From NCBI GenBank assembly GCA_024639975.1, contig JAHEFX010000004.1, positions 1-60,194 of the forward strand: a DNA stretch of 60,194 nucleotides, read 5' to 3'. The notes beneath the pieces are model-generated. The model searched no databases. It saw nothing but the letters and a program-made list of their open reading frames with translations, and had not been told where the DNA came from. Shown piece by piece: positions 50,754-60,194 of this stretch. Position 1 is the first letter of the stretch; every line of letters starts with the position of its first letter. The translations under genes were made by a program, and so were the position numbers. Origin of the DNA: a bacterium (GTDB lineage Bacteria > Actinomycetota > Acidimicrobiia > Spongiisociales > JAENVV01).

Positions 50754-51566
50754 TCAGTCGGCGAACGCCGGACAGATGTCTTGGAACGAGCACCAATCAC
50801 AGAGGACCGACGTGGACGGCTTCCACGTATCGGTCTCGATCGCGCGGACGATGGAGTCCCAGATCGCCCGCACCTGCTTCTGCACGCCGTCGAGTACTTC
50901 GTCGTTCACCGACATCGAGTACTGGGTGGGCCCGTTCAGGTAGATGAGCCGCAGCTCGACGGGGGTCCGACCCAACCGCTGGCGGATCAACATGGCGTAG
51001 ATCTTCATGGCGAAGAAGGCCGACGCCGCGTAGCGCTCGGGCGGCGCCTTGCCGGTCTTGTAGTCGAGAATCACGAGCTCGCCATCCGGACGCTCGTCGA
51101 TCCGGTCGAGGATGCCACGGATCACCATCCCGTCGAGCTCCTCGACCAGGTCGAGCTCCCGATCCATCGGCACCACCTGCTGGGGGTCCTCGATCCCGAA
51201 GTAGTTGGCGAGCAGCTCCATCGAGGCGACGCCCCAGGCCCGCTCGTCCTCGGCCGTCTCGAACAGGCCCTCGTATTCCTCGCTACCACGAAGCTCGGTC
51301 CACGCCTTGCGGAACAGGTCGTAGAGCACCTCCGGAGCCCGTTCATCGGCGGGCCGGTCATAGAACCACTCGAGGGCGAGGTGGGCGGTGGTCCCGCGGG
51401 CCTGGTGGACGGTGGTCGGCTCGGGCAGCTTGTCGATCGATCGGAACTTGTAGAGCTGCGGGCACTGCTTGAAGTCCGATGCCCGGCTCGGGCTCAGCGT
51501 TGCGAGCACGATGGGTTCGTCGGCGTTGGGGGAGGCGTCGGAGGCGGCTTGGGCGGGGCTGGTCAC
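50754..51566 (-). CDS. RecB-like PD-(D/E)XK nuclease with Fe-S cysteines
   Basis: The 270-residue protein is a free-standing RecB/Cas4-type exonuclease domain. It has LSPSRASDFKQCPQLYKFR (first cysteine, about residue 33), the conserved GTTAHLALEWF histidine (about 60), the catalytic aspartate and DYKTG lysine of GILDRIDERPDGELVILDYKTGK in pieces (about 165-185), and a C-terminal cysteine triad CDWCSFQDIC, which with the first cysteine can hold a 4Fe-4S cluster. It may process DNA ends. The GTG at 51566 fits a -10 box at 7 bases. No helicase partner is adjacent, but adnAB-like genes are 2 kb away. Confidence 0.88.
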   Translation of the reverse strand: MTSPAQAASDASPNADEPIVLATLSPSRASDFKQCPQLYKFRSIDKLPEPTTVHQARGTTAHLALEWFYDRPADERAPEVLYDLFRKAWTELRGSEEYEGLFETAEDERAWGVASMELLANYFGIEDPQQVVPMDRELDLVEELDGMVIRGILDRIDERPDGELVILDYKTGKAPPERYAASAFFAMKIYAMLIRQRLGRTPVELRLIYLNGPTQYSMSVNDEVLDGVQKQVRAIWDSIVRAIETDTWKPSTSVLCDWCSFQDICPAFAD

Positions 51567-51579: not shown

Positions 51580-51706
51580 GGAGGGGGGTCGGACGGAAAC
51601 GCGTATCCATCCCCGGTCCATGCTCGTTTTCGACCAGAGCGCGAAATTCTCACCCGGTTCGCGAAAAGAACGGCCTGATTTCGGGTTCGGGACCCTCCGG
51701 ATGGCA

Positions 51707-51712
51707 TATAGT
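51707..51712 (+). promoter_or_regulatory. -10 box of the structured RNA (TATAGT)
   Basis: TATAGT is the most consensus-like -10 box seen in the window and stands in an A/T-rich patch. It predicts a transcript start near 51719. No good -35 box is recognisable at the standard spacing. Confidence 0.55.
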
Positions 51713-51718
51713 TCCTAT

Positions 51719-52234
51719 TGCACGAACCGGAGCGATCCGGGGAGTGCCGGGACCGGAGCGATCCGGGACCGGGCCGACGATCGGACCATGCGGAACGAGC
51801 GTCGGCGGACCCCCACAGGTCCGCCTCGGCCGGTGCAGCGCCTTCGGGTGGCGATCGGACGGGTGGGTCGGGGAGGCTCCCCCGGGGAGCGGCCTTCGGG
51901 CCGGGCCACGGGGACCGACGGACGGGAGACCGGACGGCGGAGTCGACACTTCGGTGTCGATGGCCACCCGGACTCGACAGTGAAGTGGACGAGAGTCCAC
52001 GGCCCTCGGACGGGGCCCGAAAGGAAGCCGACCGAAGGTTGCCGGAAGACCGGCGGAGCCGACCGCAAGGAAGGCGCCGAACGGAGCTGGCAGGCCGCAG
52101 ACGCAGGCATGGCTGCAGTGGCTGGTCGGAAGCGACCCAGGTCGCCGAAGACAGGCATCAGGCTCACGCTGGATGCCACGGGAGCCCCGAGGGGGCGGAA
52201 GCCGAAAGGCTGAAGCTTTCTCGGGGCTTTCCCA
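51719..52234 (+). ncRNA. Putative large structured non-coding RNA (about 510 nt)
   Basis: From a strong -10 box to a terminal hairpin this stretch contains a dense series of local helices closed by stable tetraloops: two copies of CCGGA-GCGA-TCCGG (51727, 51753), GGCGGACC-CCCACA-GGTCCGCC (51804), GGCC-TTCG-GGCC (51891), TCGACAC-TTCG-GTGTCGA (51943), GTGGAC-GAGA-GTCCAC (51985), GGCCC-GAAA-GG-AA-GCC (52014), GCCGG-AAGA-CCGGC (52041), a GCAA loop at 52065, GGTCG-GAAG-CGACC (52124) and AGCC-GAAA-GGCT (52200). GNRA and UUCG loops at this density are typical of functional RNA. The conserved cores of RNase P RNA, tmRNA and SRP RNA were looked for and not found. Class unknown. Confidence 0.65.
52180..52233 (+). 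terminator. 3' closing hairpin of the structured RNA
   Basis: AGCCCCGAG (52183-52191) pairs with CTCGGGGCT (52220-52228), extended by GGG with CCC at the base, and encloses a GAAA-capped inner hairpin. A short TTT follows the stem. It may close the RNA, terminate it, or both. Confidence 0.5.
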
Positions 52235-52243
52235 TGTCCGGGG

Positions 52244-52714
52244 TCAGTTGGTGAGGTCTGCCACCGTTGCCGCCAGCACGCCCCGGAATGCGGCTGGATC
52301 CACGGAGACGAGGAGGCCGCGCCGACCGCCGTTGACCAGTACCTCGTCGAGGTCGGCAAGCCGTTCATCGCACAGGACCTGCACGCGACGCCGGGTACCG
52401 AACGGCGAGATGCCACCGATCCGGTATCCCGTGACCTTCTCGGCCTGTTCTTCGGTCGCCGGTGCCACCTTCTTGGCGCCGAGCAGGCGTCCGACCGAAC
52501 GCGTCGAGATCTCTCGGTCACCGGGAGCCACGACCAGTACGGGCTCGCCATCGGCTTCGAGCACGATGGTCTTGGCGACCAGTCGGAGCTCGACGCCGAG
52601 GGCTTCGGCTGCGCCGGCCGCCCCGCCGCCGGCGTATCGATACGGATGGGTCCCGAAATCGACGTCGTGACCCCGCAGTTGGCGCGTCGCCGCCGTCTGT
52701 CCGACGCCTGCCAT
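52244..52714 (-). CDS. ybaK: YbaK/EbsC family aminoacyl-tRNA deacylase
   Basis: YbaK proteins hydrolyse mischarged Cys-tRNA(Pro) and relatives. The 156-residue protein has the family elements: HDVDFGTHPY at the start, VAKTIVLEADGEPVLVV with the catalytic lysine (about residue 46), and VTGYRIGGISPFG (about 96), the GGxxP(F/I)G motif. The ATG at 52714 follows the GNAT stop after one base, so the two genes form a pair. The exact tRNA substrate cannot be told within the superfamily. Confidence 0.92.
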   Translation of the reverse strand: MAGVGQTAATRQLRGHDVDFGTHPYRYAGGGAAGAAEALGVELRLVAKTIVLEADGEPVLVVAPGDREISTRSVGRLLGAKKVAPATEEQAEKVTGYRIGGISPFGTRRRVQVLCDERLADLDEVLVNGGRRGLLVSVDPAAFRGVLAATVADLTN

Positions 52715-53338: not shown

Positions 53339-53345
53339 TTGGTCC

Positions 53346-53465
53346 ATGAAAGAGATCGAAGACATCCTCGAAGAAGCAGGCCTCGAGTTCGAGGTCCTCC
53401 ATGTCGGGCCGGCAGCTCTCTGCACGGGCTGCCTCGACGGCGCAGACCTTCCATTGGCCGCCTAG
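53346..53465 (+). CDS. 39-residue CxxC microprotein upstream of the adnA-like gene
   Basis: A complete short gene encodes MKEIEDILEEAGLEFEVLHV followed by GPAALCTGCLDG and a hydrophobic tail. The leaderless-type promoter at the correct distance, an acidic amphipathic helix and a CTGC pair make it more than a chance frame. It ends 38 bases before the adnA-like gene and could be cotranscribed with it. The CxxC could bind zinc or be redox-active as half of a site completed by dimerisation. No family is known to me. Confidence 0.6.
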   Translation: MKEIEDILEEAGLEFEVLHVGPAALCTGCLDGADLPLAA

Positions 53466-53503
53466 GCGCCACCGACAACACCTGCTATCACCGTCCCCGG
53501 GAC

Positions 53504-56479
53504 ATGACACGACACACCACAGGGGACGAGATCCGGCTGGGACCGGATGAGTGGGACGACGCCATCGCGGCCACCGGAGGGCCCCAGCTGGTCGTCGCCG
53601 GGCCCGGCGCCGGCAAGACCGAGTTCCTGGTCCGGAGGGCCGCACATCTCGTGGCCACGGGCGTCGACCCGAGAACGATCGTCGTCCTCACGTTCTCGCG
53701 GCGTGGTGCGGCCGAGCTGACGACGCGGATCCGACGATCCGTCGATCCGGAGACGCCGGCCCCGCGGGCCGTCACCTTCCACTCCCTTGCTGCCCGGATC
53801 GTCGAAGCGTTCGGCGAGGTGGTCGGCTGGTCCGAGCCGCCGGCGCTCCTCACCGGCCCCGAACAGGTCGACCTGGTCGCCCGCCTCCTCACCGAGCAGT
53901 CGGCGTCGAACTGGCCGGTCGGGTTCCAGCCCTTGCTCGAGTCGAGGTCCTTTGCCGAGGAGGTCACCGACTTCCTGCTCCGGGCCCGGGAGTACACCCT
54001 CGGCCAGGACGACCTGGTCGCGGCGACCGCCGGCAGGGCCGATTGGGTGGCACTCCCCCGGTTCGACCGCGAGTACGACCGGGCACTCGCCGACCAGCAC
54101 CGCCTCGACTACGCCTCCTTGATCCTGGCGGCCACCCGAATCGCCCAGAGCGAGGAGGTCGTCGACCAACTCGCCCGCGACATCAGTCATGTCCTCGTCG
54201 ACGAGTACCAGGACACCACCGCCGCCCAGGCCGACTTCCTCGGGGCCTTGACGGCGGGCTCGTCGAACCTGACCGTCGCTGCCGACCCGTATCAGTCCAT
54301 CTACTCGTTCCGCGGAGCCGCCCTCGAGAACGTCGACCGATTCCGAACCCAGTTCATGGCCCCCGACGGCTCGCCCGCCCGTCGAGTGGTATTGACGACG
54401 TCGTTCCGCGTTCCCGCCGGGATCCTGCGACCCGCCGAGCGGCTCACCGCAGGCGACCTGCCGGGAGCAGCCGGTCCGGTCTCGCCGGCGGGCGATGGCG
54501 GCCGTGTCGACGTTCGGGTGTTCGACCAGCGAACCCACGAAGCCGACTGGATCGCGTCCGAGCTACATCGGCTGCACCTCGTCGAGCAGATCCCTCTGCA
54601 GCGCATGGCGGTGGCCGTTCGGTCCACCCGCCGGCTGCTCCCCGACCTCTCGCGGGCCCTCGAGCGCCGTGGCCTTCCCCACGACCGGCCGGACAGCCGT
54701 CTGGTCGACCACCCCGCCGTCCGGGCGGTGGCCGACATCGTTTCGTTGGCCGCCGACGATGGCTCCCTCTCCGAGGCAGACCAGCGGCGTGCGGCGCGTC
54801 GCCTGCTCCTGGGCCCGCTCGTCGGCCTCCCCCTGGGTGCCGAGCGGGAGGCCCTCCGTGAGCGGGTGGGCTCTCGCGCCGACTGGGCCTCGGTGTTCCG
54901 AGGGATCGGCGAGGAGACCGCCGCGCTCGCCGACCTGATCGACGACGGGAACTGGGCGACCGACTCGGGAGCCGCCGACGGGTTCTGGCACCTCTGGTCC
55001 GGTCTCCCGTCGCTCACCGACCGCTGCCTAGCCGACGACGGTTGGCGAGCCGCCTGCACGTCGTTCTCCCAGACCCTCTCCCAGCTCGCCGAGCGCGACG
55101 CCGGCACCGACCTGGCCTCCTACCTGCGACTGGCCGAAGCCGACGACTTCGAGGCGACGCCGCTGCTCCGCCACGACCCGGCCAACGAGGACCGGCTCGT
55201 CGTCACCACCCTCCACCAACTCAAGGGTCTCCAGTTCGATGTCGTGGTGATCGCCGATGCGGTCGACGGCATTCTTCCCGACCTGCGGCGCTCGGTCTCG
55301 ATCCTCAACACCCACCTCCTCCCGGAGGCCCGCCGAGACCCGGTGGAGGCAGCTCGATTCCGGGTCCAGGAGGAGATGCGCCTCGCCTACACGGCGATGA
55401 CGAGGGCCTCCGAGCGAGTCATCTGGACCGCCACCGCCGAAGGCAAGGACGAGACCGAGGACCGCCCTTCGCGTTTCCTGACGGCGGTCACCGACCGGGA
55501 CCCGGCCCTCACCCAGACAAGCCCCCGACGACCGGTCACTCCCCTGGAGGCCGAAGCCGAGCTTCGACGGACCCTCGGTGACCCGGGGGCCCCGGCCGCC
55601 CAACGCCTTGCTGCAGCCGCCGTCATCACCGATTCCGAGATGCCTCACCTCCGCCCCATCGAGGCGCTGCCGGGCATCCGCGAGCCGGGGCCGACGGCCG
55701 GTCTGATACCCGAGTCAGCCGCCTTCTCGCCGAGCCAGGCCCAGGCCTTCGATGCCTGTCCCCGCTCCTACGCCCTCGGTCGGCATCTCGGGATCGGAGA
55801 CGAGCCCTCGCTCTACATGACGTTCGGAAGCCTGGTCCATGCGGTCGCCGAGCACGCCGACCGAGCAGCCTTGGAACGAGGAACACCCGCCACCGCAAGG
55901 GAGGCCCTTGCGGTTCTCGACGCCAAGTTCCACCCCGGCGACTTCGGGGGCCCGCCGTGGTCAGACCATTGGCACCGGCGCGCCGTCGAGGCCGTGGAGA
56001 ACCTCTACACGATGCCCCCGGGCGCCGGCTCCACGCCGGCCGTGGTCGAGCGACCCCTGGTGCTGGAGATCGATGGCGAGCACTGGCGGGGTCGCGCCGA
56101 CCGCATCGACGCCGACGACGGGTCATTGAAGGTCATCGACTACAAGACCGGCAAGAACCCCGCCAGCGCCAAGGACACGAAGGAGAGCCTCCAGCTCGGC
56201 TTCTACGCGTTGGCGGCCGCAGCCGATCCGGAGGTCGCCGGGCTCGGCACGGTCGACGGAGCCGAGCTGTGGTTCCCGCTGGCGGCACAGAAGCGCGGCT
56301 TCGCAACGCGTCCTTTCGACATGGCCAACCTTGAGGGTGTTCGGGAACGCCTGGCCGAGATCGCGACGTCCATACGCCGGGAGGAGTTCCCGCCGAACGT
56401 GGGAGCGGCATGCGACCGGTGCCCCGTCCGGATCCTCTGCGACGAATGGCCCGAGGGTCGGGAGGCGTTCGTCCCTTGA
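53504..56479 (+). CDS. UvrD-like helicase with C-terminal RecB-like nuclease, AdnA-like
   Basis: The 991-residue protein has a superfamily 1A motor and a nuclease, the layout of each subunit of mycobacterial AdnAB. Motor motifs: VVAGPGAGKTEFLVRRA (residues 30-46), VLTFSRRGAAEL, VLVDEYQDTTAAQ (about 230), motif III altered to ADPYQSIYSFRGA, and VTTLHQLKGLQFDVVV (about 568). The C-terminal domain (about 740-991) has VHAVAEHA, GRADRIDAD and VIDYKTGKNP, so its nuclease looks intact, with cysteines DACPRSY and CDRCPVRILC for a 4Fe-4S cluster. It is coupled to the next gene by a TTGA overlap. It may resect double-strand breaks. Confidence 0.88.
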   Translation: MTRHTTGDEIRLGPDEWDDAIAATGGPQLVVAGPGAGKTEFLVRRAAHLVATGVDPRTIVVLTFSRRGAAELTTRIRRSVDPETPAPRAVTFHSLAARIVEAFGEVVGWSEPPALLTGPEQVDLVARLLTEQSASNWPVGFQPLLESRSFAEEVTDFLLRAREYTLGQDDLVAATAGRADWVALPRFDREYDRALADQHRLDYASLILAATRIAQSEEVVDQLARDISHVLVDEYQDTTAAQADFLGALTAGSSNLTVAADPYQSIYSFRGAALENVDRFRTQFMAPDGSPARRVVLTTSFRVPAGILRPAERLTAGDLPGAAGPVSPAGDGGRVDVRVFDQRTHEADWIASELHRLHLVEQIPLQRMAVAVRSTRRLLPDLSRALERRGLPHDRPDSRLVDHPAVRAVADIVSLAADDGSLSEADQRRAARRLLLGPLVGLPLGAEREALRERVGSRADWASVFRGIGEETAALADLIDDGNWATDSGAADGFWHLWSGLPSLTDRCLADDGWRAACTSFSQTLSQLAERDAGTDLASYLRLAEADDFEATPLLRHDPANEDRLVVTTLHQLKGLQFDVVVIADAVDGILPDLRRSVSILNTHLLPEARRDPVEAARFRVQEEMRLAYTAMTRASERVIWTATAEGKDETEDRPSRFLTAVTDRDPALTQTSPRRPVTPLEAEAELRRTLGDPGAPAAQRLAAAAVITDSEMPHLRPIEALPGIREPGPTAGLIPESAAFSPSQAQAFDACPRSYALGRHLGIGDEPSLYMTFGSLVHAVAEHADRAALERGTPATAREALAVLDAKFHPGDFGGPPWSDHWHRRAVEAVENLYTMPPGAGSTPAVVERPLVLEIDGEHWRGRADRIDADDGSLKVIDYKTGKNPASAKDTKESLQLGFYALAAAADPEVAGLGTVDGAELWFPLAAQKRGFATRPFDMANLEGVRERLAEIATSIRREEFPPNVGAACDRCPVRILCDEWPEGREAFVP

Positions 56480-59400
56480 ACGAACCCACCCCCACGCCCG
56501 AGCAACAGGCGATCCTCGATGCCGGGCGCGGTCCGATGCGGATCGACGCCGGTGCCGGCACCGGCAAGACCTGGACCCTCGTCGCCAAGATCGCCTCGCT
56601 CGTGGAGCGAGGGGTGCCTCCGGAACGGATCCTCGGCATCACCTTCACCAACAAGGCCGCCGGTGAGCTGGCCGGCCGGGTACGGGGGGCGGTCGCCGAA
56701 CTGGTGGACATCGGGATCGAGGTCGACATCCACACCTACCACGGGTTCGCCGCCCGGGTCCTGCGGGAGTTCGGTCCCTTCGTGGGCGTGGAGCGCGACG
56801 CCAGGGTCATCACCCCCACGTTCTCCCGGCAGCTCCTGATCGAGTCCATCTCCGAGACACCGGACCTCGAACTGCTGAACCTCACCTACCTCCCAGCCGT
56901 GCTGGACCCGCTGGCGTCGCTGACCCAATCCATGTCAGACAACCTCGTCGACCCCGGAGTCCTGCTCTCGCCCGACCCCGATGACGACATCGAACGACGA
57001 CGGGCCCAACTCGCTTCCGTGGTGGTCGAGTACCGGAGCGAGAAGGCCCGTCTGGGGGTCCTCGACTACGGCGACCTCATCGCTCGGGCCCACGAGCTCG
57101 TCTCGACCCGGCCGGAGGTTCGCGACCGGATCGCCGATCGGTATGAAGTCATCCTGCTCGACGAGTACCAGGACACCGACCCCGCCCAGCGCCACCTACT
57201 GCAGCAGCTGTTCGGTGACGCCCGTACGGTGATCGCCGTCGGCGACCCCGACCAGACGATCTACGAATGGCGAGGGGCCTCCATCGAGAACTTCGAGGCC
57301 TTCCCGGAGCACTTCCCCACGGCTGACGGCAGCCCGGCCCCCACCCTGCCGCTCTCGCTGAACCGACGATCGGGCCAACTCATCCTCGACGTCGCCAACG
57401 CCGTGCGAGCCGAAGTGGGCGATGCGGCTCGGGCCCCGCTCCGCGCACCGGACGGCACGCCGGCCGGTTCCGTGACCGTCGGCTACCACCGCACCGCCGT
57501 CGATGAGGCGGCCGCCATCGCCGACCTGGTCCTCGAGCACCGCAACGAGGGCCTCGACTACCGCCAGATGGCCGTCCTCGTCCGATCGAGCTCCGCCATC
57601 TCCCCGGTTCGGGCAGCGTTGGCAGACGCAGACATCCCCGTGGAGGTGGCGAGTCTCGGGGGGTTGTTGGATGTGCCCGAGATCGTCGAGATACATGCAT
57701 GGTTGCGCCTCCTCCACGACGCCTCCGACTCGGTGGCCTTCGCCCGGTTGGCGATGGGCTCGCGGGGACGCCTCGGACCTGCCGAGCTGAAGCCACTCGC
57801 CGATTGGGTCCATGCCGGTCGCCATGGTGTCGCCCGGACACTCACCGAGGCGCTCGACCATCTCGACGAGCTCGACGTGTCACCGGAGGCGAACGCCGTC
57901 CTGGGTGGCCTCCGCGATCGCCTTCGACGTCTGCTTCCGGCCGCCCAGGGACTCAGCCTCTCCGAGCTGGTGCGGGAGGTCCTCGGCGAGATCGACGCGT
58001 GGCGGGACATCGAGTCGCTCCCTCCGGCCGCCGCCCTGTCCGGCCGCCTCAACCTCTACCGGTTCCTGGACCTCGCCGAGGAGTGGAGCCCATTGGAGGG
58101 CCGCCCGTCGCTCGAGGCGTTCCTCGAGCACCTGGCCCTGCTCGGCGAGGAACGGACCGAGGAGCCCGAGGCTGCCCGGCTCTCGGGCGAGGATGCCGTC
58201 ACCATCGTGACCGTCCACCGGGCGAAGGGCCTCGAGTGGGAGGTGGTGTTCCTCCCGTCGGTGGTCGACGCCCGCTTCCCCATCACCGGGCGCGCCTTCG
58301 ACGACCCGTTCTCCAAGCCGGCTTCCCTCCCCCACCGCCTTCGGCTGGACTCCAATGCCCTGCCGTGGCTCGACCCCGACGACAAGAAGCAGCGCGAGGA
58401 CGTGCTGCGCGAGCACGCCCTCGCAGCCGAGTGGCGCCTCGCCTACGTGGCCGTCACCCGGGCCCGCCAGTTCCTCCATGTCTCGGGGGCCCACTGGTAC
58501 GGCAGTCCACAGACCCTGAAGAACGCCAAACGGCCTTCGCCTCTCTACGAGGTCGTCGCCCGGGTCGACGGCGTGGACGACCTCGGAACGGCTGATCCCG
58601 GCGAGCGACCGGACACGCTCGTCCCGCCGACGCGGCACTCGGCTCCCGATCCCCTCTTCCGGGATGGCTGGGATGGCGCCCTTCGGTCGGCGGCGGAGCG
58701 TCCGGACTGGCCGGCGACACTCGCCGCCGAGCTGGGCATCACCGCGGCATACGATGAAGCGGTGGCCGACTTCCAGGACATGCTCTTCTCGCTTCCGGAG
58801 CCGCCGGCGTCGGAAACTGCCGAGGCGGCTCCGACGGTCTCGGTCTCGGGGCTCGTGACCTACGCCCGGTGTCCCAAGCAGTACTTCTGGAGCCATGTCG
58901 AGCCACTGCCGCGTCGCCCGAATCCGGCCGCGGCACGAGGGGTGGCCGTCCACCGCAAGATCGAGCTCCACAACCTGGGCCACCTCCCACTCGACGACGC
59001 CGGCGAGGCCGTGTACGACGTGACCGAGCCCGTATCACCCCCGGACGGTCGGGTCGGGGCGTGGGAGGCGTTCCAGGATTCCCGCTATGCGACCGAGCGG
59101 CCCCTCCTGGTCGAAGCGCCGTTCGAGACCGTCGCCCACGGCACCACCATCCGGGGACGGATCGATGCCATCTACGGCGACGACTCGGCCTGGGAGATCG
59201 TCGACTTCAAATCCGGCAGACCCACCGACGACCCGGCAGTCGGCATCCAACTCGACGCCTATGCCATCGCCGTCGCCGACGGCGCCGTCTCCCGGTCCCA
59301 GCCCGACGATCTGACGGTCTCTTTCGCCTATCTGGGAGACGGCCTCAGCGTTCGATCGAGGAAGCTGGACGCCGAGGAGCTGGCTTCTGCCCGGTCCAGG

Positions 59401-59514
59401 GTGGAGGCGGTCGTGTCGGGTCTGACCGCCGAGGACTTCGCACCAAGGCCGGGCGACCGCTGCCGGCGCTGCGACTTCGTCGACGTCTGCCCCGAGGGAC
59501 GGACCCAGCTCTAG
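56476..59514 (+). CDS. UvrD-like helicase with C-terminal RecB-like nuclease, AdnB-like
   Basis: The 1012-residue partner has intact motor motifs: [18 protein letters not shown] (residues 23-40), [33 protein letters not shown] (about 226), [19 protein letters not shown] (about 255) and [19 protein letters not shown] (about 578). The nuclease (about 790-1012) has [40 protein letters not shown] and [10 protein letters not shown], again with four cysteines. The start is a TTG overlapping the previous stop as TTGA. With the AdnA-like protein it probably forms a two-motor, two-nuclease complex for end resection in recombination. Confidence 0.9.
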
Positions 59515-59969
59515 ACGACCCGTCCGTCAGCGGTCTCGACCACCAAGGTCACCGGCCCGTCGTTGACCAGCGACACCTCCATCATCGCTCCGAACACGCC
59601 GGTCTCGACCGGGATGCCGAGACGGTCGACCGCCTGCACGAACGACTCGTAGAGCGGCTCCGCCACCTCCGGTCGGGCTGCTGCCGTGAACGACGGCCGT
59701 CGGCCCTTGCGAACGTCGGCATGGAGCGTGAACTGGGAGATCGCCAGGACCGACCCGCCCACATCGACCACCGACTTGTCGAAGCCCGACATCCCATCCC
59801 CTCTGAAGATCCGCATACCGACCAGCTTGGCCGCCAGGGAGTCGACATCGGACTGCCCGTCGCCGTCGGCCACGCCGAGCAGGACCACGAGGCCTTGCCC
59901 GATCTCGCCGACGACGTCACCGTCGACCCGGACCGAAGCCCCCAAGACCCGTTGCACCACTGCTCGCAT
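59511..59969 (-). CDS. dtd: D-aminoacyl-tRNA deacylase
   Basis: Dtd removes D-amino acids from tRNA. The 152-residue protein begins [17 protein letters not shown] and shows the two active-site motifs [17 protein letters not shown] (about residue 78) and [12 protein letters not shown] (about 136), the cross-subunit Gly-cisPro region being NDGPVT. Its stop shares CTAG with the stop of the convergent AdnB-like gene. A TAGGGT box (minus strand, 59978-59983) ends 8 bases before the ATG. Confidence 0.96.
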
Positions 59970-60051
59970 GGGCGGTCACCCTACGGCGCAGGCGGATGGA
60001 GCCCGGATTCCTGCCGGTGGATATGCCCCGACGCCCCCGGAACCCTGGCCC

Positions 60052-60057
60052 TACGCT
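60052..60057 (+). promoter_or_regulatory. -10 box of the last, partial gene (TACGCT)
   Basis: TACGCT ends 7 bases before the ATG at 60065, the standard leaderless geometry of this window. Confidence 0.45.
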
Positions 60058-60064
60058 TCGGGTC

Positions 60065-60194
60065 ATGCGAGAACGGAAGTCCCGACTCCACCTCGCGATC
60101 CTGCTCCCCCACCTCCGTGCCAGGTCCGGGATCGCCGCCGTCACCCTGACCCTCGTGGTCGGGACGGTCGCGCTCGACCTGACCGTGCCGGTGC
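60065..60194 (+). CDS. N-terminal fragment of a membrane protein
   Basis: The frame begins MRERKSRLHLAILLPHLRAR and continues with a hydrophobic helix (IAAVTLTLVVGTVALDLTV) before the window ends, so only 43 codons are visible. Basic residues before the helix suggest an inner-membrane protein with N-terminus inside. The -10 box 7 bases upstream supports the start. The family cannot be told. Confidence 0.6.
   Translation, partial: MRERKSRLHLAILLPHLRARSGIAAVTLTLVVGTVALDLTVPV

Follow-up and report, generated by a model that had tools for sequence, protein, structure and literature searches.

An undescribed candidate family of large structured RNAs in one actinobacterial order shares an upstream DNA site with dnaA and nrdJ

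Described large RNAs and the 51707-52234 interval

Large structured bacterial RNAs are few, and several have turned out to be catalysts, scaffolds or nanocages. The closest described systems fall into four groups. The titration RNAs CsrB, RsmY and RsmZ occur as several paralogous, hairpin-rich RNAs per genome, with variable bodies, a conserved upstream activator site and their own terminators; their protein is CsrA, and its binding motif is a repeated single-stranded GGA in loops. Ms1 and 6S RNA are stand-alone, highly structured RNAs that bind RNA polymerase (RNAP); actinobacteria lack 6S and use Ms1 (PMC9130861), whose gene is tied to a HAD-hydrolase or oxidoreductase neighbor. OLE, ROOL and GOLLD RNAs are large, ornate and rich in tetraloops, with an unknown function for most of them; RNA-only assemblies of this sort exist (PMC12286853), and GOLLD and ROOL are phage-linked. 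Finally, RNase P RNA and tmRNA are of a similar size class and are also heavily structured.

The interval considered here lies within a 60,194-nt stretch of DNA (the window; contig JAHEFX010000004.1 of assembly GCA_024639975.1, class Acidimicrobiia). A preliminary description, made from the sequence alone, proposed that positions 51707 to 52234 encode an unassigned large structured RNA with its own transcription unit, perhaps of a rare or undescribed class. The observation itself is confirmed by the present analysis. The segment from 51715 to 52234 on the plus strand folds with a minimum free energy (MFE) of -299.6 kcal/mol (z = -7.5, with none of 100 shuffles as good), whereas its complement gives z = -3.8; when the terminator is removed, the body still gives z = -5.6 for the sense strand against -2.3 for the antisense strand. 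The pairs of the MFE structure have a mean probability of 0.92. This structure has 14 hairpins, of which 8 carry UUCG or GNRA loops (GCGA twice, UUCG twice, GAGA twice, GCAA and GAAA), so the earlier count of at least ten hairpins capped in this way was slightly too high. The long 3' closing stem that had been proposed is real; it spans 52183-52230, with an outer stem of AGCCCCGAG/CTCGGGGCT, and together with a short U tract it forms a terminator-like hairpin at 52183-52233. At the other end, a 5' hairpin at 51720-51747 reads GCAC-GAA-CCGGA-GCGA-UCCGG-GGA-GUGC.

The interval sits in a gap of about 680 nt. On one side is a RecB-like PDDEXK_1 nuclease gene on the minus strand (50754-51563, start near 51563; Pfam PF12705, 8.6e-36), which diverges from the RNA, and on the other is a YbaK-like tRNA_edit gene, also on the minus strand (52244-52714; PF04073, 3.6e-29), which is convergent with it. 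(Farther along, at 53339-60194, two long frames with RecB-type nuclease domains near their C-termini, with matches at 55715-56443 and 58825-59496, suggest an AddAB/AdnAB-like repair cluster.) The open reading frames that overlap the RNA have no Pfam hit even at E <= 1, which argues against a protein-coding reading. A strong match to a known Rfam family had been named in advance as an outcome that would remove the novelty of the RNA, but a search of Rfam 15, including RNase P, tmRNA, SRP, 6S, OLE, ROOL and GOLLD where represented, gave no hit over the gathering threshold in the window, and a permissive scan at E up to 10 gave only sub-threshold hits (DUF3800-XI, 18.2 bits against a cut-off of 37.8).

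The -10 box TATAGT at 51707-51712 had been called the best in the window; it is one of only three sites on either strand that match TATAAT in 5 of 6 positions, and none matches in 6. However, the unit starts farther upstream than was first thought. A direct-repeat operator, CGCGAAA-N13-CGCGAAA, with its two half-sites 20 bp apart, lies at 51640-51666 and is the only match in the window even when one mismatch is allowed (0.02 expected), and since 51707 is the start of the -10 box, the transcript should begin near 51719, giving a structured non-coding RNA of about 516 nt (51719-52234). The -35 position at 51685-51690 is degenerate (GTTCGG, where other members described below have TTG(A/C)C). Because the -35 is poor, a generic σ70 scan finds no promoter here, and a promoter matrix lacking the CGCGAAA positions likewise does not pick out this promoter.

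Operator, terminator and bodies of the family

A DNA similarity search with the RNA in 99 genomes gave only short, chance-like matches outside its own genome, and similarity fails across genera. Relatives were instead found by synteny of the RecB-like gene. A sister genome (G002) has no RNA at that place, but beside the RecB-like orthologue in another genus of the same family (genus g2) lie two tandem structured RNAs, A (about 190 nt) and B (about 450 nt), with B followed by a gene for a bacterial PH-domain (bPH_2) membrane protein. Across four species A is 90-100% identical and B 73-95%, while the spacer between them is 6-30%. The 3' hairpin of B resembles that of the window, and upstream of A, of B and of the window RNA stands the same CGCGAAA-N13-CGCGAAA motif.

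The exact motif occurs in 120 of 138 genomes of the order, while a reversed-pattern control has no match in the order genomes listed. After most of the copies that were read there is a promoter, a hairpin-rich body and the same terminator, and tandem units each have their own operator, promoter and terminator. The distance from motif to promoter is rigid: a TTG -35 box starts exactly 45 bp after the first base of the operator in 68 of 76 RNA units, and the -10 lies near +68. (The window is among the 8 of 76 units that deviate, so the TTG is a majority feature and not a universal one; its -10 box sits at the family position, shifted by one base.) This is the geometry expected for a regulator that touches RNAP from an upstream site, although no such regulator has been identified and this step is an inference. 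A literature search for CGCGAAA found no bacterial paper apparent from titles and abstracts, and nothing was found on ncRNAs of this order.

The conserved terminator-like hairpin provides a second link among the units. An alignment of 41 sequences (40 distinct) has 16 pairs with 98.1% of cells paired, and seven of these pairs have changes on both sides (for example, C-G to U-A at the base of the stem and G-C to A-U in the apical stem), with 0 of 500 shuffles as good. A model of this hairpin (R1) hits 86 of 95 genomes of the order, as counted from its table, with 1-7 copies per genome that are often in tandem. Since R1 was trained with the window sequence included, a separate profile HMM was built without it; this finds the window's terminator at E = 1e-8, and the next place in the window, its own complement, at E = 0.2. 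In genus g34 (6 genomes) there are many operators but no R1 hits. In four of these genomes (G058, G066, G085 and G127; loci L138-L167), 5-10 operators per genome lie beside unrelated genes and are usually followed by GGGCCCACCCCCGCCACCACC; here the operator seems to have spread into another repeated element, while the RNA is lost or unrecognizable. In the rest of the class and phylum only weaker matches to R1 occur, the most regular of them in genus g89 of family f23, where a conserved hairpin-rich unit of about 250 nt (loci L240, L241 and L242 in genomes G315, G214 and G212) ends in a related terminator (CCCCGAGGGGCTGG..CTCGGGG) but lacks the CGCGAAA operator; this is possibly a distant cousin family in another part of the class. 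A scan of a public genome collection with the terminator returned 15 records, all of them metagenome-assembled genomes, most labeled Acidimicrobiia, Actinobacteria or Actinomycetota, two only 'bacterium' and one Acidobacteria. That the order was returned only as such genomes would explain why a nearly universal family was missed.

The bodies, of about 150-800 nt, differ in length and plan but fall into subtypes, two of which covary strongly. (Bodies were typed from selected loci and not exhaustively.) Subtype 1, in families f7, f8 and f2, has a three-way junction around GAGGGCCUUCGGGCUCAC, with 29 pairs of which 9 have double changes, and a model of this junction (R2) finds it in 13 genomes. 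Subtype 2, in family f8 and usually next to bPH_2, has 79 pairs, 26 of them with double changes and 0 of 500 shuffles as good. The window RNA does not contain the subtype-1 junction (best score 9 bits, against 76-99 in members), but the core of its 5' hairpin, ACCGGAGCGATCCGGGGA, is identical in the subtype-2 RNA of locus L071. No covariation could be counted for the window body itself because its genus is represented by one incomplete genome (84%). Among 45 members without their terminators, the sense strand folds better than the antisense strand relative to shuffles in 44. The overrepresented words are CUUCGG (177 against 17 expected), CGCAAG (79 against 8), CGAAAG and GGAAAC, so selection seems to be for stable capped hairpins rather than for a repeated single-stranded motif.

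Taken together, these results support the interpretation offered in the preliminary description, that of a structured RNA gene candidate matching no Rfam family; conservation and covariation in related genomes, whose absence it had set out as evidence against a functional RNA, are found in the family. What it did not include is that the RNA is one of a multi-copy, nearly order-wide family whose operator is also used elsewhere.

The same operator before replication genes

The window's own genome has a second operator, which lies upstream of dnaA (locus L168; Pfam Bac_DnaA, 1.2e-69). In family f12 of the class, whose genomes are about 1 Mb, most genomes have exactly one operator, and all 17 fetched copies (loci L223-L239) lie in front of dnaA, one of them confirmed by Pfam; this is a possible regulatory site of a replication origin region in an AT-rich lineage. 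In the window's order the operator also precedes nrdJ in 8 cases (one confirmed by Pfam as a class II ribonucleotide reductase) and dnaB once. At nrdJ the promoter geometry is that of the RNAs, with TTG at +45 in 7 of 8, but at dnaA the phasing differs, with TTG at +45 in 1 of 27. (The loci behind these counts of element types were partly chosen by hand.) The simplest history is an ancestral dnaA operator that later spread to nrdJ and to the RNA genes, but this is an inference. In one case (locus L170, contig C145 of genome G069) the nrdJ reading frame looks interrupted by an intein-like stretch (..HACFPEGTRISLRDGFKPIEKIEPGDIVLTHEGRYRSV..). The operator also precedes a gene for an uncharacterized protein of about 270 aa (MEPVLNIEPTQRLAELRRTVRLYQERYGELSG..) at loci L171 and L179 (genomes G069 and G094); this protein has no Pfam match and may be a further member of the regulon.

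The operator therefore appears to mark a replication regulon (dnaA, nrdJ, dnaB and the RNAs) and so gives a way in to its unknown regulator, while the conserved promoter and terminator make the family easy to annotate and to look for in metatranscriptomes.

Possible modes of action

The explanation favored here, with moderate confidence, is that 51719-52234 is a stand-alone gene for a large, highly structured, trans-acting non-coding RNA of an undescribed family specific to this order of Acidimicrobiia. The analysis directly supports the promoter element with its operator, the terminator-like hairpin, a selected secondary structure, the nearly order-wide distribution, and the presence of the operator before dnaA and nrdJ, with the spacing of the RNA promoters retained at nrdJ; by contrast, transcription, expression together with the replication genes, and action in trans are deduced, and no expression data were available. 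In this view, a replication- or growth-linked transcription factor bound to the operator makes the RNA together with the replication genes. The RNA, almost fully paired and capped by very stable tetraloops, would be long-lived and would act neither by base pairing nor by coding but as a folded platform, most likely binding or titrating a protein or forming an RNP or RNA assembly whose dose follows chromosome replication; against base pairing or coding, almost everything is paired and no reading frame has a match. Against this explanation, body structures differ between subtypes, genus g34 has many operators but no terminator hits, many members precede a bPH_2 gene, the -35 of the window promoter is poor, no covariation could be counted for the window body itself, and the function step is an inference without expression data. 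What is new is the RNA family and its regulation; large structured ncRNAs as such are a known kind. A bolder form of this idea, which is tentative, is that the family is a new class of replication-coupled RNAs, in which each genome of the order makes one to several rapidly evolving, tetraloop-armored RNAs under the operator of dnaA and nrdJ, and these form an RNP or titrate a factor so that replication, dNTP supply and growth stay in step, as an RNA arm of a bacterial cell-cycle regulon.

A conserved promoter and terminator around fast-changing, paralogous hairpin bodies is also the gene architecture of Rsm/Csr-type titration RNAs. However, a search for CsrA (PF02599) found no hit in the window's genome (84% complete) and was positive in only 3 of 21 relatives, and, as described above, the enriched words are UUCG and GNRA tetraloops rather than a repeated GGA motif; a CsrB-like sponge was rejected as a family. 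The possibility that this is a missing RNase P RNA or tmRNA was likewise rejected, since both are found elsewhere in the window's genome (on contigs C16 and C102, respectively) and RNase P RNA is found in all 21 genomes tested. The tmRNA, at 51878-52238 of C102, scores 71 bits, as low as in family f5 (62-68), while most relatives score about 150-168, indicating a divergent tmRNA.

Among the alternatives, an RNA that works like 6S or Ms1, mimicking or blocking a form of RNAP and thereby setting its availability, is unlikely but survives best. A long, almost fully paired RNA under growth-linked control, in a phylum that uses Ms1, would suit such a role; binding to RNAP core was not assayed. However, besides the lack of an Rfam match, the folds show no single long hairpin with a central bubble, the HAD-hydrolase or oxidoreductase neighbor of Ms1 is not found beside this RNA, where the neighbors are PDDEXK_1 and tRNA_edit, and the multi-hairpin, multi-copy units with lengths of 150-800 nt are unlike 6S and Ms1.

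A cis-regulatory leader, that is, an attenuator or riboswitch-like 5' region controlling the downstream gene, is nearly as doubtful. A bPH_2 gene (Pfam, 4.6e-20) follows 28 of 82 units, often within 200 nt of the terminator, and a cis role is thus possible for some members. However, most units have no bPH_2 gene in the downstream DNA examined, the next gene in the window is convergent, and tandem units are each bracketed by their own signals.

An ornate RNA that self-assembles like GOLLD, ROOL or OLE into an oligomer or cage, with a storage or scaffold role, is also improbable. Like Ms1-like polymerase binding, such assembly stays open as a way of working, although the membership criteria tested do not hold. 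Its size and dense GNRA-capped structure are consistent with this idea, and oligomerization was not measured, but there is no Rfam match, no viral contig was found with the terminator pattern, which also argues against a viral element, the promoter carries a fixed operator shared with dnaA and nrdJ, and the bodies change quickly, which is hard to reconcile with a fixed quaternary structure.

Least likely is that the hairpins act at the DNA level (as protein-binding or single-strand DNA structures, for example at replication sites) with the RNA being incidental, because although the operator also occurs at dnaA and hairpins would also form in single-stranded DNA, folding is strand-asymmetric across the members, a fixed promoter and a terminator bracket the structure, and many standard pairs are kept as G-U, which only RNA favors.
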